From contig NZ_LT629771.1 of the NCBI RefSeq assembly GCF_900105175.1, positions 3,791,501-3,855,500 of the forward strand: a stretch of DNA of 64,000 bases, given 5' to 3'. Both the position numbers and the translations under genes were made by a program. Under the pieces are notes generated by a model. That model searched no databases. It was not told where the DNA came from and worked only from the letters and a program-made list of their open reading frames with translations. Below are positions 25,986-36,986 of this stretch, in pieces (positions within the stretch are counted from its first letter, which is position 1; each line of letters opens with the position of its first letter). Origin of the DNA: Jiangella sp. DSM 45060. GTDB taxonomy: Bacteria; Actinomycetota; Actinomycetes; Jiangellales; Jiangellaceae.

Positions 25986-26915
25986 GTGACTGTCGCGCCG
26001 GAGGGACGTCGGCTGCTGCGCCTCGAAGTGCGCAACGCCGAGACGCCGATCGAGAAGAAGCCTTCCTGGATCAAGACGAAGGCGACCATGGGCCCGGAGT
26101 ACCGCGAGCTGCAGTCGCTGGTGAAACGCGAGGGCCTGCACACGGTCTGCCAGGAGGCCGGTTGTCCCAACATCTTCGAGTGCTGGGAAGACCGCGAGGC
26201 CACGTTCCTCATCGGCGGCGACCACTGCACCCGCCGTTGTGACTTCTGCCTCATCGACACCGGCAAGCCCGACGACCTCGACCGCGACGAGCCCCGCCGC
26301 GTCGCCGAGTCCGTCCAGGCCATGGGGCTGCGCTACGCCACCGTCACCGGCGTCACCCGCGACGACCTCCCCGACGAAGGTGCCTGGCTGTACGCCGAGA
26401 CCATCCGCGAGATCCACAAGTTCAACCCCAACACCGGGGTCGAGATCCTCACCCCCGACTTCTCCGGCAAGGCCGACCTCCTGCAGCAGGTGTTCGACGC
26501 GCAGCCGCAGGTGTTCGCGCACAACGTCGAGACCGTGCCGCGCATCTTCAAGCGCATCCGGCCGGCGTTCCGGTACGAGCGCTCGCTGGACGTCATCTCC
26601 ATCGCCCGCGCCGCCGGCATGATCACCAAGTCCAACCTCATCCTGGGCATGGGCGAGACCCGCGAGGAGATCTCCCAGGCGCTGGCCGACCTCCACGGCG
26701 CCGGCTGCGACCTCATCACCATCACGCAGTACCTGCGCCCGTCCGTGCGTCACCACCCGATCGAGCGGTGGGTGAAGCCCGAGGAGTTCGTCGAGCTGCA
26801 GGCCGAGGCCGAGGAGCTGGGCTTCGCCGGCGTCATGTCCGGGCCGCTGGTGCGCTCGTCGTACCGCGCCGGACGGCTCTACCGGCAGGCCATGGAGGCC
26901 CGCGCCGCCCGCTGA
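25986..26915 (+). CDS. lipA: lipoyl synthase
   Basis: 309 residues. The auxiliary cluster motif is [12 protein letters not shown] and the radical-SAM motif is CTRRCDFC; the C-terminal [10 protein letters not shown] carries the Ser ligand of the auxiliary cluster. It inserts two sulfur atoms into octanoyl groups made by LipB. GTG start at 25986. In related genomes a DUF4191 gene soon follows lipA; here about 10 kb of other genes intervenes. Confidence 0.96.
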
Positions 26916-26956: not shown

Positions 26957-27718
26957 ATGACGCAGCAACCGTGGCCCGGCGACCCCGCGGCGGCCTGGCG
27001 GCGTGCACCGATCGACGGCCCGGCCCCGCCGTCGAGGCGCCCGGCTCCGCCCGACCTGTCCGACTTCGAGACCTTCACCAGGCTGCTGCCGCACCGTGGC
27101 GAGTACCTGGCGATGCCGCTGATGTACGGCATCGGCGGCGCGTTCTGCGTCGCCGTGGGCCTGCACCTCATGCGCTACCAGAGGCCGCTCGACCCGTTCG
27201 ACGGCACGCTGCCGGGGTGGCTGGGGCTGATCGCGTACTGGCCGCCGTGGTTCCTGGTGCTCGGGCTGGGCGTGGCCTGGCTGTGCTGGGCGCCGATGTC
27301 GTACGTGCGCGGCAAGCGCGACCACCCGCGCCGCCTGCGGGAGCTGTACGAGCGGATCAACCGCGACGGCATCATGGTCCAGACGTTCCTGAGCACCCTG
27401 CGACTGGAGGCGCACGAGGGCACCGACCCGTCCAGGATCGCCATCGAGACCCGAATCGGCGATACCCAGGCGGGCCGGCTGCACGCCGCCTTCCACCACT
27501 GGCTGGACGCGCTGCGCGACGACGGCGACGCGCGCACAGCCGCGCAGGAGCGCATCGGCGAGCGCCGGGTGCTGCCCGCCACCGAACTGTTCGGCCCCGA
27601 GGCGCAGGGCGGCTACCTCATCCGCGCCACGTCCATCAACCCGTGGCAGGTCCTGCTGCCCGAGACGGGCGACGACGGCACCGTGCGATGGACCATCGAA
27701 GGAGTCCGCGACCGCTGA
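26957..27718 (+). CDS. hypothetical two-helix membrane protein
   Basis: 253 residues. A Pro-rich N-terminus leads to two membrane segments (~52-70, MPLMYGIGGAFCVAVGLHL; ~92-115, WPPWFLVLGLGVAWLCW), then a cytoplasmic domain starting YVRGKRDHPRRLRELYERINRDGIMVQTFLSTLRLEAHEGTD. ATG at 26957. I do not recognise a family. It is the first gene after lipA and marks the left edge of the accessory segment. Confidence 0.72.
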   Translation: MTQQPWPGDPAAAWRRAPIDGPAPPSRRPAPPDLSDFETFTRLLPHRGEYLAMPLMYGIGGAFCVAVGLHLMRYQRPLDPFDGTLPGWLGLIAYWPPWFLVLGLGVAWLCWAPMSYVRGKRDHPRRLRELYERINRDGIMVQTFLSTLRLEAHEGTDPSRIAIETRIGDTQAGRLHAAFHHWLDALRDDGDARTAAQERIGERRVLPATELFGPEAQGGYLIRATSINPWQVLLPETGDDGTVRWTIEGVRDR

Positions 27719-31280: not shown

Positions 31281-32558
31281 TCATGTCGCCGTCCCTGCGG
31301 TCGCGGGCGCGTACGCCGTCGAGAAGGCGCCCCAGAACAGCGGCGAGCAGGACGGGTCGCCGGTGCGCCACCAGCGGGCGGCTCGGTCGCGCTGCCAGGC
31401 CACCTGCGCCGCCACCGGGTCGGGCGCCTCGTGCGCGTCGTTCACCGCGACGACGGCGTCGGCCAGCCCGCCGCCCGGCAGCCCGGCGTCGGTCGGCAGC
31501 GGCCAGCGCGCGGCCGTCACGTGCTCGGCCCCGCCTTGCACCATGGCCGCGACCAGCCCGGACGACTCGGCGAAGCGGGCGTCGCCGCCGCTTTCGCAGG
31601 CGATCAGGGCGACCCGGGCGGGCAGCCGCCACGGCCGCGGATCGTCGGTGCGGTGCCCGAAGGCGAGGTCGGCCGCGGTGAGCGGACGGTGCGCGCCGAC
31701 CGGCGCCGCGCGGCCGGGCGCCGACGCCGGGCAGGAGAGGTGCAGTGCGGCGCCGAGCCCGTGCTCGGCCGTCGTCACGTGCCCGACGTAGAGGAACCGG
31801 GCGGCGGTGGCCAGCTCACCCTCCAGCCGATCGCGGTCGACGTCGTCGCGGCGGAACGCGTCGGTGGCCGACGAGACGGCCGGGCGCAGCCGCGGCCTGA
31901 GGGCGTCGGCCATCGCCGCCAGCGTGGACCCGGCCTCGACCGGCCCGAGCACCGAGCCGAGCGCGGACCCGTCCGGGAAGCCGGGCACCCGCGGGTCCAG
32001 CGCCGCTGCCAACGGACCGTCCGGGTCCCACGGCGCGACCCGGCGGCCGATCGCGTGGCGCACGGTCGCGGGCGGCAGCACTGAGACGTCGACGAGATCG
32101 GCGACCCGCTCCCCCGCGTCGCCGGGCAGCGCCTCCCAGGGCACCTGCGCGGTCGACGGCGACGGCTGGACGCGCAGGTGCGGGCGGACGCCGCGGACGC
32201 CCAGTTCGTTCAGCTCGGCCGCCAGGCGGAACGGCAGCAGCGTCTGCGCCAGCCGGGTGCTGAGGGCGTGCTCGCGCTCGCGGTCCAGCAGCGGGCCGCC
32301 GAGCGCACGGGCGAGCGCCGCGGCCGAGTCCTCGCCGGGCAGCGGCGACGGCAGTGCCCGGGCGAGGTCGTCGAGGGCGGGCTGGACGCGGGAACGCTCC
32401 AGCGCCGTGACGCGCGGCTCGCCCGGCGCGTGCTCCCACCGCCACGTCACATACAGGTCACCGGCGTCGACGAACTTCACCTGGACGACCGGCCGCGCGG
32501 CGCCGAGGCCGTCGAGCACCCGCAGGTCGACGGCGGGCCGGCGGCGCAGGCTCACCAT
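31281..32558 (-). CDS. CHAT-domain (caspase-like) protease
   Basis: 425 residues. The C-terminal half is a CHAT peptidase: catalytic His likely His260 in LYVGHVTTAEHG, catalytic Cys likely Cys321 in RVALIACESGGDARFAESSGLVAAMVQGGAEHVTAARWPLP. The N-terminal ~200 residues contain PHLRVQPSPSTAQVPWEALP, typical of CHAT proteins. No signal peptide. ATG at 32558 overlaps the TPR gene by 7 nt; a GTG one codon later would give the common 4-nt overlap. CHAT proteases paired with TPR proteins act in regulated proteolysis, and some in conflict or cell-suicide systems (family knowledge). Last gene of a four-gene operon. Confidence 0.88.
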   Translation of the reverse strand: MVSLRRRPAVDLRVLDGLGAARPVVQVKFVDAGDLYVTWRWEHAPGEPRVTALERSRVQPALDDLARALPSPLPGEDSAAALARALGGPLLDREREHALSTRLAQTLLPFRLAAELNELGVRGVRPHLRVQPSPSTAQVPWEALPGDAGERVADLVDVSVLPPATVRHAIGRRVAPWDPDGPLAAALDPRVPGFPDGSALGSVLGPVEAGSTLAAMADALRPRLRPAVSSATDAFRRDDVDRDRLEGELATAARFLYVGHVTTAEHGLGAALHLSCPASAPGRAAPVGAHRPLTAADLAFGHRTDDPRPWRLPARVALIACESGGDARFAESSGLVAAMVQGGAEHVTAARWPLPTDAGLPGGGLADAVVAVNDAHEAPDPVAAQVAWQRDRAARWWRTGDPSCSPLFWGAFSTAYAPATAGTAT

Positions 32559-34603
32559 GCCGGCACCACCTCGGCGGAGCGCACCGGGAACCCGTAGCGC
32601 TCCTCGGCGGCGTCGATGAAGCCGTCCAGCACGCCGTCGCCGGACGGCAGCATCCGCAGCCGCGGCGGCAGCGCCAGCAGCTCGGTGTCCGGCGGAGCGA
32701 ACCCGGGGCCGTCGGTCGCGGCGGCGCTGAGCGCGGCCCAGGCATGCCCGGCGAACGCGTCGTCGGCGTCGAGCAGCCGGGGCGAGTCGGCGGACGGCGT
32801 CAGGGTCACCGTCGCGGCCGCGTGTTCGACCAGCTCGAACGCCAGAGCCGTCCACTCCAACCGGGTGACCAGCTCGAACGCCAGCGTCAGCGCGGGCGCG
32901 GCGACGGAGCGGGCCCACCGTTCGCGCACCGGCCCGGCGGCGAAGCCGTACCGGATCGCGTCGGTCGCGAGCGCGGCGGGCAGCACCAGGCCGAGCGCGG
33001 CCTCGCGGCGGCGGACGCGTTCCTTGCGGCGCGGCGTGATGCGGGTCGAGGCGGCGACGATCATCGCCCGGCGGACGTCGACGCGGGCGGTCTCGTGCCG
33101 CAGCCCGAGCCGTTCGCACCGCTCCCGGGCGGCCAGGTAGACCTCCTCACCGGCGGCGAAGCCCTGGACGACGGTGGTGAGGTCGCCCTGCAGCAGCAGG
33201 CACTCGGTCAGCTGCGCGGCGTCGCCGGCATCGGCCAGCACCGTCACGGCGGACGACAGCAGCTGCTGCGCCGCACCCGGCCGCGCGCGGCGCAGCGCGA
33301 CCGCCGCCCGCCCCACCTGGCAGCCGGCGACGTCGTGGACCCGGCCGAGCCGCTCGTACGCCTCCTGCGCGGCGGCGAACCCACGCTCGGCCGCCGCGAG
33401 GTCGCCGCGACCCAGCGCCTGCCGGGCCTGGTTCTCCAGCGCGAGGGCCTGTGCGGCCTCGTCGCCGGTCAGCGCGTGCAGTTCGGCGGCCAGGCCGAGC
33501 TGCTGGGCGGCGGCCTCGTGGTCGCCGACGCGGGCGGCCAGCGCCGCGAGGTTCGCGTGCGCGTGCCCGGCCAGCCCCGGGTCGCGCTCGTGCGCGACGG
33601 CGAGCGCCCGGCGCAGCGCCGCCTCGGCCTCCGCCGCCCGGCCCAGGCTCAGCAGCGAGACGCCGCGGCTGTTGTGCAGCGCGAAGACGAGGACAGCCGG
33701 CGCCTCAGGAGCGGCGCCGGGCGCGGGACCGGCCGGGAGGTCCGCGGCCGCGGCGCCGTGCCGGGCGACCTTGTCGGTGCGCGCCCCTACAGTAGGTGGC
33801 CCACCCGGCCGGGAGGGGTGGGTACTGTCCGGCTCCGGCCCGCCGTCCACGTCGGCGGCGGCCGGGTCGTCCGCGGCCGCGGCGCCGTGCCGGACGACCT
33901 TGTCGGTGCGCGCCCCTACAGTAGGTGGCCCACCCGGCCGGGAGGGGTGGATACTGCCCCGCTCCGCCCCGCCGTCCACGTCGGCGGCGGCCGGGTCGTC
34001 CGCGGCCGCCGCGCCGCGCCGGACGACCTTGTCGGTGCGCAGCCCTACAGTAGGTGGCCCACCCGGCCGGGAGGGGTGGATACTCCCCCGCTCCGCCCCG
34101 CCGTCCACGTCGGCGGCGGCCGGGTCAAGGACCGCGACGGCAGCCGGGTCGTCCGCGGCCGGGTCGCCGATGGCGGCCGCGGCGGCGTCCAGGTCGCGCA
34201 GCGCGTCGGCGCTGCGGCCCAGCCGCTCCAGCGTCTGCGCCCGGTTGACCAGCGTCGCCGCCCGGGTGGCCGGGCCGCCCGCGGCGAGGCTCTCGTCGGC
34301 CAGCGCCAGCGCGGCGGCGAGGTCACCCTGGTCGTCGGCGACCATGGCGAGCAGGTGCAGGGCGCGGGCCCGCAGATCGCGGCCCTCGGCGTCGTCGCAG
34401 CCCTCCGTGGCGGCACGGATCGCGGCGAGGATCGCCTCGGCCGCCTCCGGCCGGCCCGCCGCCAACTCCGCCGCGGCGGTGGCGAGCTCGCGCCCGTGCT
34501 CCGCCCAGCGCGGGCCGTACGCCGCCGCGGAGCCGAGCCCCGCCCGGGCGGCGGAGCCGAGCCCCGCCCGGGCGGCGGGGCCGAGCCCGGCCCGGGCGGT
34601 CAC
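32552..34603 (-). CDS. TPR-repeat protein partner of the CHAT protease
   Basis: 683 residues. TPR-type helix pairs occupy ~20-130 (ARALHLLAMVADDQGDLAAALALADESLAAGG; LVNRAQTLERLGRSADALRDLDAA) and resume at ~295-480 (NSRGVSLLSLGRAAEAEAALRRALAVAHERD; LENQARQALGRGDLAAAERGFAAAQEAYERLG). Between them, about 159-287, lie three 43-residue repeats of disordered Pro/Gly/Ala sequence. After ~510 a helical C-terminal domain follows (PRRKERVRRREAALGLVLPAALATDAIRYGF). GTG at 34603 overlaps the preceding stop by 4 nt. The N-terminus also has short GLGPAARA-like repeats. Likely a sensor or scaffold for the CHAT protease. Confidence 0.85.
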   Translation of the reverse strand: MTARAGLGPAARAGLGSAARAGLGSAAAYGPRWAEHGRELATAAAELAAGRPEAAEAILAAIRAATEGCDDAEGRDLRARALHLLAMVADDQGDLAAALALADESLAAGGPATRAATLVNRAQTLERLGRSADALRDLDAAAAAIGDPAADDPAAVAVLDPAAADVDGGAERGSIHPSRPGGPPTVGLRTDKVVRRGAAAADDPAAADVDGGAERGSIHPSRPGGPPTVGARTDKVVRHGAAAADDPAAADVDGGPEPDSTHPSRPGGPPTVGARTDKVARHGAAAADLPAGPAPGAAPEAPAVLVFALHNSRGVSLLSLGRAAEAEAALRRALAVAHERDPGLAGHAHANLAALAARVGDHEAAAQQLGLAAELHALTGDEAAQALALENQARQALGRGDLAAAERGFAAAQEAYERLGRVHDVAGCQVGRAAVALRRARPGAAQQLLSSAVTVLADAGDAAQLTECLLLQGDLTTVVQGFAAGEEVYLAARERCERLGLRHETARVDVRRAMIVAASTRITPRRKERVRRREAALGLVLPAALATDAIRYGFAAGPVRERWARSVAAPALTLAFELVTRLEWTALAFELVEHAAATVTLTPSADSPRLLDADDAFAGHAWAALSAAATDGPGFAPPDTELLALPPRLRMLPSGDGVLDGFIDAAEERYGFPVRSAEVVPAW
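33742..34128 (-). repeat. three in-frame 129-bp repeats inside the TPR gene
   Basis: TTGTCGGTGC recurs at 33771, 33900 and 34029, a period of exactly 129 bases (43 codons). Each unit contains the reverse complement of the interspersed hairpin element (CCTACAGTAGGTGGCCCACC, then CGGCCGGGAGGGGTGG) plus GTCCACGTCGGCGGCGGCC. Units differ at a few bases. The reading frame is preserved. Confidence 0.92.
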
Positions 34604-35613
34604 GTGGCCGCCCGCTCGGTCAGCGTGGCGTCCGGCGCGGCCGGCCGGGCCCGCGCGGCGGCGACGATCGCAGCCCGGCGGGCGAGGTCGTCCGGGCGCA
34701 CCGGCTCGGGCGCGGTCGTCAGGGCCGGCACGTAGACGAGCGCGGCCCGCTCGGCGGCCGGCAGCAGCAGCGCAGACGCCGGGATCGTCGCCGTCCCGGC
34801 GAACAGTCCCTCGCGGGTCGGCGCGAGCACGACATCCGCCGGGCCGAACCGGGCGCGCAGCGCCGTCGCGGGCGCCCATGGATCGGGCGCGGCCGGCACC
34901 GAGACCTCCACGACGGTGTCGTCGGCGCGGCGGATCGTCCAGCTCGCCTCCGCGGCGGCGTCGACGAGGCCCGGCGGGACGTCCGTCCAGCTCACCGGCG
35001 TGGACCCGCGCGCCACCAGCACGCCGGCGCCGTCGCCGGGACCACCGGCGGCAAGCGCGAGGCCGGCCCGCTCCGGGGTGACGACGGCGGCGGGCAGCGC
35101 GACGCCGTAGTCCTCGGCGACGGCGACGAGCGCCGCCGCCAGCTCGGGGTGCCCGTGCGGCGGCGCGGCGACCGCGAGCGCCCGCTCCACCGCCTCGTCG
35201 TCGTCCAGCAGGTGCTCCGCCGCGGCGGCCGCGACGGCACGCTCGGCCCGCAGCAGGCCGCGGTCCAGCGCCAGCACCCCGGCGGCGGCCGACGCGGGCC
35301 ACCAGGCCTCGGCCCAGGTCAGCCGCGCGAGCGTGCGGACGGCGTCGAGGACCCGCCGGTCCGCGGGCACGGCCGCGACGTCGATGCCGTCCGGTGTCGC
35401 GTCCTGAACCGCCGCGGCGACGTCTACGCCGTACAGCTCCCAGAGCCACCCGGCGGCGCGGCCGGTGTCGTGGACCGTGGCGGACGGCAGCTCCGTCGGC
35501 GCGACGACGTCCCAGGTCAGCAGCGCGCCAGCGGCCTCGACCAGCGCCGTCCGCTCCGGGTGCGCGGGCGGCGGCCCGACGCTCACGCCGTCGGCCGTGC
35601 GGGTGACGATCAC
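34600..35613 (-). CDS. hypothetical protein of the CHAT operon (second gene)
   Basis: 337 residues, rich in Ala, Val and Asp. It opens VIVTRTADGVSVGPPPAHPERTALVEAAGALLTWDVV, has a Trp-rich TWAEAWWPASAAAGVLALDRGLL helix, and a C-terminal region of beta character (EASWTIRRADDTVVEVSVPAAPD; GPADVVLAPTREGLFAGTATIPASALLLP). No catalytic motif or membrane helix is seen and I do not recognise a family. Start and stop overlap both neighbours by 4 nt (GTGA), so stoichiometric expression with the TPR and CHAT proteins is likely. Confidence 0.75.
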   Translation of the reverse strand: MIVTRTADGVSVGPPPAHPERTALVEAAGALLTWDVVAPTELPSATVHDTGRAAGWLWELYGVDVAAAVQDATPDGIDVAAVPADRRVLDAVRTLARLTWAEAWWPASAAAGVLALDRGLLRAERAVAAAAAEHLLDDDEAVERALAVAAPPHGHPELAAALVAVAEDYGVALPAAVVTPERAGLALAAGGPGDGAGVLVARGSTPVSWTDVPPGLVDAAAEASWTIRRADDTVVEVSVPAAPDPWAPATALRARFGPADVVLAPTREGLFAGTATIPASALLLPAAERAALVYVPALTTAPEPVRPDDLARRAAIVAAARARPAAPDATLTERAAT

Positions 35614-36899
35614 GGCCGGGCCTCCGCGTCGCGGGACAGCGCGGTGCGCAGCCGGTCGCGCTGGTCGAGGATGACCGAGCGCAGCACGCCGTCCAGCAGG
35701 TCCCAGCACTGACCGGCGTCGACGTCCTGACCGCGCAGCTCACGGCCGTGCAGCCGGACCCACAGCCGGCGCAGGTACGCGGCCCGCACGTCGCGCACCT
35801 CGGCCCGCAGCTCGTCCGGGACGGCGGCCGCCTCGGCCGGAGGCAGCCGCAGCACGCGGTGCACGTACGCCTCGCGCCGCCAGCGCGACCGCAGCCGGGA
35901 CCGCGCGTCGTCCGGCGCCCGTCCGGTGTCGTCGTCCAGGGCCGCGGCGGCGGCGCGGCCCAGCGCCAGCAGCACCCGGCCGGGCTCGCCGGCCAGCTGC
36001 CACGGCCGCGCGGACCGGCCGATCTCGGCGCCGACCAGCGCGGCGACGTCGCCGTCGATCGGGTGCCCCGTCGCGACCCCGGCGAACAGCCGCTCCAGGA
36101 CGGAGCGGTCGAACGGCTTCGGCAGTCCCCGCTTCGACGCGGCGTCGCCGAGCCCGGGCGGCGTGACGGACGCGCGGTCGGTCAGGCCGTGGTGGCGGGC
36201 CGCGCCGGGCGGCTCCAGGTGCGCGGCGTCGCAGCTGCCGTGCCCGCCGTCGACGAGCGCCGCCCAGGCCCGCGGATCGGGCGCCGTGGCGCAGGTCGCC
36301 AGCACCTCGTCCAGCTGCGGCGCCGGTTCGGACGGAGCGGCCGGCGCCTCGCGCGCCGTCCAGGCCGCGTCCAGCCGGCGGGCCAGCTCGGCGGCGTGCG
36401 CGGGGTCGGTGACGTAGGCGCGCACGGCGGCCGCCGTCACCCGTCCGTCCGCCGTCCGAGCCGCCGCGACGGTGGCGGCGGCCAGCTCGGCGGCGCCCGC
36501 GACGTCGTCGGGGTGACCGTGCCGGTGGGCCAGCTCGTAGCAGCGCTGGAAGTACCGCTCCTGCGGATTGCCGTCGGTGACCCCGGCGCGCCGTCGCTCC
36601 CGCTTGACCAGCACGAACCAGGCCGCCGTCGCCGTCAGGACGGGTCCGGCGGCGGCCACGAGCCGGGTGAGGTCCGCCGCGTCGGCCGCGGCGACCGTCG
36701 CGCCGGCGAACCGCGGGTTCTGCGCCGGCCGCAGCACCAGGGGGTCGAGGATCAGCCGGACCGTGCGGACCAGCGGCCGGCCGGAGGCGTTGCTCAGCGG
36801 AGTGACGCCGTCGCCGAGCCCGGCCCAGGCCTGCGCCAGCAGCTGATCGCGCGGGACTCGGGTGGCCGCGTCGAGGGTGGTCCCGCCGCGGCTGCTCAC
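35610..36899 (-). CDS. hypothetical protein of the CHAT operon (first gene)
   Basis: 429 residues, mostly helical. Segments of note: RTVRLILDPLVLRPAQNPRF, a hydrophobic stretch TRLVAAAGPVLTATAAWFVLVKRERRRAG, QERYFQRCYELAHRHGHPDD and a C-terminal AAYLRRLWVRLHGRELRGQDVDAGQCWDLLDGVLRSVILDQRDRLRTAL. No recognised domain. GTG at 36899; 87 nt separate it from the divergent DUF4191 gene, so the operon promoter must lie there. Probable input or structural component of the CHAT module, by context only. Confidence 0.75.
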   Translation of the reverse strand: MSSRGGTTLDAATRVPRDQLLAQAWAGLGDGVTPLSNASGRPLVRTVRLILDPLVLRPAQNPRFAGATVAAADAADLTRLVAAAGPVLTATAAWFVLVKRERRRAGVTDGNPQERYFQRCYELAHRHGHPDDVAGAAELAAATVAAARTADGRVTAAAVRAYVTDPAHAAELARRLDAAWTAREAPAAPSEPAPQLDEVLATCATAPDPRAWAALVDGGHGSCDAAHLEPPGAARHHGLTDRASVTPPGLGDAASKRGLPKPFDRSVLERLFAGVATGHPIDGDVAALVGAEIGRSARPWQLAGEPGRVLLALGRAAAAALDDDTGRAPDDARSRLRSRWRREAYVHRVLRLPPAEAAAVPDELRAEVRDVRAAYLRRLWVRLHGRELRGQDVDAGQCWDLLDGVLRSVILDQRDRLRTALSRDAEARP

Positions 36900-36986
36900 G
36901 GTGTCGGATTCTACCGGCCGCCCGTTGGCCGACCTCGGCGTTCACCCGGTCGGGCGAGCGGCCCGCCAGGAAGTACTCTTCTCCCC

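Follow-up and report, generated by a model that had tools for sequence, protein, structure and literature searches.

A four-gene module that joins a TPR protein and a CHAT protein to two undescribed protein families in Jiangella and other actinobacteria

Four adjacent genes, here called A, B, C and D, lie on the minus strand of a 64,000-nucleotide stretch of the 7.49-Mb genome of the soil actinomycete Jiangella sp. DSM 45060 (G000:C1:3791501-3855500, where G000 is this genome itself; the whole stretch is hereafter the window), and the safest statement one can make about them is that they form a single four-protein CHAT module. Very probably, they make up a single system, so far undescribed, that exerts control or defence by way of a protease. 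Caspases and separases have bacterial relatives in the CHAT proteins, few of which have an established partner set. A first-pass annotation of the window had read the genes as an operon with overlaps of 4 to 7 nucleotides (nt), encoding two unrecognised proteins, a TPR protein and a CHAT protein, and this description is borne out: coordinates and joins are as it gave them (Table 1), gene C matches a TPR family of Pfam (PF13424, 37 bits against a cut-off of 30.1) and gene D matches CHAT (PF12770, 43.5 bits against a cut-off of 24), these being the only two Pfam families found in A-D. In particular, residues His260 and Cys321 of D, which the same annotation had singled out and which we take to be the CHAT catalytic pair, are conserved in 76 of 76 homologues. 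The composition of the module, the co-occurrence of its genes, the intact catalytic pair, the C-D fusions, the overlaps, the accessory location and the envelope-type neighbours are all direct observations, presented in what follows.

The association of A, B, C and D exceeds what chance would give. Searches with protein A found relatives in Jiangella, including J. endophytica and J. rhizosphaerae, in Actinophytocola, and in genera g4 and g5, both of a second family (here and below, f and g designations are family and genus labels supplied with the genome set, and gene starts outside the window are our own picks). In counts that, as throughout, are uncorrected for relatedness, a profile of A matched 67 of 397 Mycobacteriales genomes in 13 of 85 genera and, at class level, 33 of 393 genomes, which added genera g3, g269 and g430; the B profile matched 66 of the 397, and 64 genomes have both. 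The genomes with A only hold one degraded copy, one truncated copy and one weak match, and those with B only hold one weak match and one fragment. Profiles of all four genes were then applied to the surroundings of all 67 A-positive genomes, together with the Jiangella copies, the 6 new class-level finds and 3 of the 6 plasmid-collection matches (L124-L126, which may duplicate species present elsewhere in the set), the Actinophytocola gossypii locus (L005 = L099) being counted once. All four genes are present in 76 of these 80 loci, the intact loci span 14 genera by label, and A adjoins this CHAT protein, D, in every one of the 76, the co-occurrence with CHAT for which the first-pass annotation had proposed a survey. 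Of the remaining four, L036 stops at the end of a contig, L035 is a remnant in Jiangella, L099 is the truncated copy of A. gossypii and L080 a degraded one. Weak A matches in two further genomes (G114 and G825; L033 and L100) yielded no A by profile at E<=1e-4 and stand outside the 80 loci.

The same picture emerges from the side of D. Namely, its profile matched 63 of 328 Mycobacteriales genomes, 58 of them at more than 180 bits, and all 58 are A-positive; the remaining five have CHAT matches below 33 bits only. In other words, this CHAT subfamily hardly occurs outside the module, the one exception being in genome G050, to which we return below. Simple vertical synteny is an insufficient explanation of the association, since the module occurs in 14 genera and in two gene orders and since C and D have become fused in part of the loci. 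Separately, the Jiangella genome encodes a second CHAT protein at another locus (L171, G000:C1:5823000-5837000), in a 933-codon open frame with a CHAT match of 82 bits at G000:C1:5829299-5830027; the A, B, C and D profiles have no match at that locus.

We read the anatomy of the module as a tight AB pair and a tight CD pair, with, most simply, a single change in their order. At the A-B join, 67 of the 76 loci have a start codon that gives a 4-nt overlap, and 75 have a start that overlaps to some extent; for C and D the corresponding counts are 47 and 52, and a further 14 loci carry C and D in a single open frame. The B-C and D-A joins are looser than either. The order is A-B-C-D in 43 loci and C-D-A-B in 33, and these 33 make up one group on a tree of D built with FastTree. 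What is more, C-D fusions occur at no fewer than three places on that tree, which argues for joint action of the TPR and CHAT proteins as a single machine. Between the trees of A, B and D, distances show correlations of 0.90-0.95, values that are uncorrected for species relatedness, which contributes too.

Proteins A and B, unrecognised in the first-pass annotation, stay so in wider searches: neither has a match at E<=1 in Pfam, PADLOC or NCBIfam, or at E<=0.01 in PHROGs. Homologues of A (n=15) and B (n=13) gave stray Pfam matches, with best E of 0.11 and 0.013, respectively; two B members matched an immunoglobulin-like Pfam model at E 0.19, which we did not use. Among PDB sequences, protein A and the D profile each matched no chain up to E 10, and protein B matched seven chains, the best being a desulfoferrodoxin at E 0.05, also set aside. 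A structure model of A built from four sequences has a mean predicted local distance difference test score (pLDDT) of 54.6, with residues ~11-150 mostly at 70-90 and the remainder low, and a model of B built from three sequences has a mean of 45.4. The low-confidence A model gave no Foldseek match at E<=0.001, and its best VIA-align match had a Z of 5.8 over 88 residues, with a root-mean-square deviation of 3.3. Searches of sequence libraries and the PDB for both proteins, and with Foldseek and VIA-align for A, thus gave no convincing match. An apparent extra N-terminal domain on A (704-codon frames at L028 and L031) was dropped, the extra part being antisense to a small gene between D and A.

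Is the module a known system under another guise? The first-pass annotation had held its composition to be undescribed, and this view has stood up: A-D match no family at E<=1 in PADLOC-DB 2.0.0, A and B match no CATRA model, and no description of the module was found in the open-licence literature of PubMed Central (PMC), a coverage that leaves subscription journals mostly outside. CHAT-linked defence and cell-death proteins, such as gasdermin-associated proteases, share the CHAT catalytic pair with D; what sets the module apart is that TPR and CHAT are all that Pfam recognises in A-D. The CATRA caspase/TPR conflict system is a multi-gene composition of a caspase-superfamily peptidase with TPRs and partner proteins, a likeness that would make the module its variant, and it was reportedly defined in a 2020 paper in the Journal of Bacteriology. 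CATRA is mentioned in the excerpted part of PMC8195603, and the corresponding part of PMC7159879 contains neither CATRA nor CHAT. However, the 15 A and 13 B members show no match to CATRA-N (PF20269) or CATRA-C (PF20270) at E<=1 in Pfam, which makes a CATRA variant highly improbable. It should be noted that genome searches with the CATRA-N and CATRA-C models prove nothing by themselves, as they found nothing in the Jiangella genome and the 14 control genomes were blank too.

Craspase, of the type III-E clustered regularly interspaced short palindromic repeats (CRISPR) systems, in which Cas7-11 (gRAMP) is combined with the TPR-CHAT protein Csx29, is like the module in that a CHAT domain is tied to TPRs and to partner proteins, and the loci with C and D in one open frame resemble its TPR-CHAT polypeptide. 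It differs in other respects: Cas7-11 is, in the excerpted literature, a single polypeptide of four Cas7-like segments and one Cas11-like segment, whereas no A-D protein (425-683 amino acids (aa) for C and D) is big enough for it, A and B match no family, and TPR and CHAT usually sit in separate genes. Craspase does suggest a role for the partner proteins: cleavage of its natural substrate, Csx30, yields two fragments, according to the excerpted part of PMC11106740, and by analogy A or B might be a substrate only, cut by D to free an active fragment. None of the 76 intact loci has D without A and B, and protein A has conserved first and last parts with a variable middle between them, a possible cleavage region. 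However, A and B have no homology to any family and cleavage is conjecture, so that we consider a substrate-only role somewhat improbable. It is compatible with the explanation that we favour below, rather than opposed to it.

The module is accompanied by genes of envelope type, which the first-pass annotation had missed. Three profiles were built from neighbour genes, and their matches were counted within 2 kb of the four genes: a protein weakly like DUF3592 is found in 50 of the 76 loci, a lipoprotein in 41 and a PQQ-like protein in 17, with one or more of the three in 73, and the lipoprotein and PQQ-like genes together in none. Most of the DUF3592-like examples examined have two N-terminal hydrophobic stretches, and two examples of the lipoprotein belong to the Mycobacterium 19-kDa family (Myco_19_kDa, PF05481; 103 and 81 bits). 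The PQQ-like gene lies upstream and on the opposite strand in the 14 loci outside Jiangella that have it; in Jiangella two PQQ-like copies, F and G, follow D together with a membrane protein, E, and homologues of F adjoin A in other genera. To our knowledge, neither Myco_19_kDa nor DUF3592 proteins are known as partners of CHAT, and no paper linking the CHAT domain with DUF3592 was found in the open-licence PMC literature. We regard the envelope tie as a lead. As a separate observation, the module of one g4 genome group lies near a fusion of lysyl-tRNA synthetase and phosphatidylglycerol lysyltransferase, an envelope-lipid enzyme (L023, 2026-5343), identified by Pfam on one example, the cluster of which (c6) is found in 16 loci.

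These neighbours could mean that the module serves envelope homeostasis or developmental proteolysis with no conflict involved. In that case the lipoprotein or PQQ-like protein would be the true sensor, and D would process a protein of the membrane or cell wall. Such a role would account for envelope-type genes in nearly all loci, and it agrees with the failure to find A in phages, there being no match in 50,697 phage records and no relative in viral contigs by pattern scan. In g4 genomes the genes on either side of the locus fall into at least three different sets, each common to several genomes, and it is this sharing of flanks that speaks for such a role. However, the module is dispensable, with A in just those 67 of 397 Mycobacteriales genomes and missing from 7 of 12 Jiangella genomes, and we consider a purely homeostatic or developmental role rather unlikely.

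In Jiangella the module sits in an accessory segment, as the first-pass annotation had proposed; its location stood, its size did not. Namely, the seven Jiangella genomes that lack A align with the window to ~26,916 and again from ~36,924-36,979, with 7-158 bp between, so that the accessory unit is ~10 kb and not 5.6 kb long, and holds A-G and one opposite-strand gene, the last four lying outside the operon that the annotation had described. It is flanked by genes with the putative names lipA (25986-26915), DUF4191 (from 36987), RDD and glnA; a DUF4191-type gene is present in all 12 Jiangella genomes. The G+C content is 76-82% over 30-37 kb and 68-74% around it, and no integrase was noticed in the segment in passing.

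Table 1. Positions in the window of the module, its Jiangella neighbours and associated features.
Feature	Position	Strand	Size	Description
Gene A	36899-35610	minus	429 aa, GTG start	undescribed family; predicted all-helical (low-confidence model)
Gene B	35613-34600	minus	337 aa, GTG start	undescribed family; 4-nt overlap with A
Gene C	34603-32552	minus	683 aa, GTG start	TPR protein; 4-nt overlap with B
Gene D	32558-31281	minus	425 aa, ATG start	CHAT (caspase-like) protein; 7-nt overlap with C
Gene E	31201-30356	minus	281 aa	three hydrophobic stretches; no Pfam match at E<=0.1
Gene F	30359-29373	minus		PQQ-like, PF13360 19.5 bits (cut-off 27.6); N-terminal hydrophobic stretch by eye
Gene G	29373-28222	minus		second PQQ-like, related to F; PF13360 19.2 bits (cut-off 27.6)
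Segment membrane protein	26957-27718	plus	253 aa	predicted
Tandem repeat in gene C	33730-34126	minus	129-bp unit	3.1 in-frame copies
Accessory segment	26920-36940		~10 kb	missing at this site in 7/7 Jiangella genomes without A

Loss and, possibly, transfer have shaped this distribution. In the Jiangella genome G398 a remnant of A adjoins a C-terminal remnant of G. In A. gossypii just six bases separate the end of the A match from the tail of a G homologue, likewise its C-terminal part (E 1e-6), and the four-gene profiles find no B, C or D at that locus; the genes that lay between A and G are thus gone from both genomes. The Jiangella copies cluster with loci of f113 and f7 in the tree of D, which suggests transfer of the module between orders. 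Of 72,556 plasmid records, 6 have A: five are from Streptomyces, 1.2-1.6 Mb in size, and a 2.66-Mb Nocardia farcinica record is labelled a plasmid and may be part of a chromosome.

Patchy distribution of this kind, with an accessory segment, repeated loss, the five Streptomyces plasmid records and the variety of flanking-gene sets in g4, would fit anti-phage abortive infection, in which A and B would sense infection and the TPR-CHAT protease, once unleashed, would kill or arrest the cell. TPR-CHAT proteases do serve defence, Craspase being the example in the excerpted literature. However, A-D have no match in PADLOC, and among 96 neighbour proteins scanned there (of 116 picked, from 17 of the 76 loci) the matches are scattered over 14 models: TPR for 4 proteins, mad2, mad3 and mad8 for 2 each, AriA for 2, and others, including AbiEi and AbiLi, for 1 each. 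Moreover, abortive infection leaves the envelope-type neighbours unexplained, and we judge it unlikely, a role in defence more broadly being plausible by analogy.

Gene C has features of its own in this genome. The 68-nt core of its 129-bp repeat has 26 matches in the genome, 3 of which are the gene C copies and 23 of which lie at ~14 other sites, several of them grouped in twos to fours; the repeat is absent from J. endophytica C, and one close relative has a diverged version. It seems that a dispersed repeat entered the coding sequence of gene C and then expanded inside it. In addition, at the extreme start of the gene (34527-34599) a 24-bp repeat present three times gives a repeated Ala/Gly/Leu N-terminus, and none was seen in J. 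endophytica.

What could such a module do? The explanation that we favour, and which as a whole we place slightly on the probable side, is a two-unit mechanism: a TPR-docked CHAT protease together with the partner pair AB, coupled to the envelope. Here, C and D would form the TPR-docked cysteine protease, and A and B a pair that holds it in check, serves as its first substrate, or both. A membrane protein, weakly DUF3592-like, and an exported lipoprotein or PQQ-like protein would feed in an envelope signal, upon which the TPR protein would change shape and A, B or some further protein would be cleaved by the CHAT domain. This cleavage would, in turn, switch a stress, growth-arrest or death response. 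That D acts as a protease, that the proteins form a complex, which way the signal runs, what is cut and what comes of it are what we infer in this scheme, and the first-pass interpretation, a module of sensor, scaffold and protease, is as a whole partly supported.

That said, a number of points weigh against this mechanism. The cleavage activity of D is itself a prediction, the models of A and B (mean pLDDT 54.6 and 45.4) identify no folds, and certain lineages match the C profile poorly, E being 1e-12 to 1e-20 for loci of g300 and f90. In genome G050 a complete A-B-C-D locus coexists with a C-D pair that has neither A nor B (L170, 7993-10903), so AB is no absolute requirement. The envelope side has its own difficulties. 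Namely, the DUF3592 label (PF12158) is below threshold, at 16.6, 19.7 and 20.3 bits against 25.3, with none for the L023 member, and so is the PQQ label, at 19.2-20.2 bits against a cut-off of 27.6. For three loci (L125, L144 and L149) the 2 kb around the four genes gave no match to any of the three neighbour profiles; a protein judged DUF3592-like by eye is present at L125 and L149, and none was noted at L144. In Jiangella, the C-terminal part of E is only weakly like the DUF3592-like partner (hhalign probability 17%, E 0.0014), and E shows no similarity to the partner of Streptomyces type. What is more, the envelope-type neighbours vary with lineage, and DUF3592-like and lipoprotein genes are common in actinobacteria, as the PQQ-like family is elsewhere too, so the association may partly reflect local synteny. 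As a matter apart, a small protein near the G050 C-D pair (L170, 12645-12962) is DUF3592-like by eye.

Going one step further than the two-unit mechanism, and with more doubt than confidence, one may picture a widespread, undescribed caspase-like pathway of actinobacteria, in which an envelope sensor, made up of a DUF3592-like membrane protein and a 19-kDa-type lipoprotein or PQQ-like protein, would switch a TPR-CHAT protease that has A and B as its gate or first substrate, and would so couple damage at the cell surface to regulated proteolysis or cell death. The module is a fixed four-protein CHAT set found in 14 actinobacterial genera, and it includes two families that are without annotation. 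Its repeated tie to envelope-type proteins makes it a candidate for connecting regulated proteolysis with the cell surface, and the four proteins offer a defined, expressible set for testing directly how a bacterial caspase-like protein is activated, what it acts on and what role it has.

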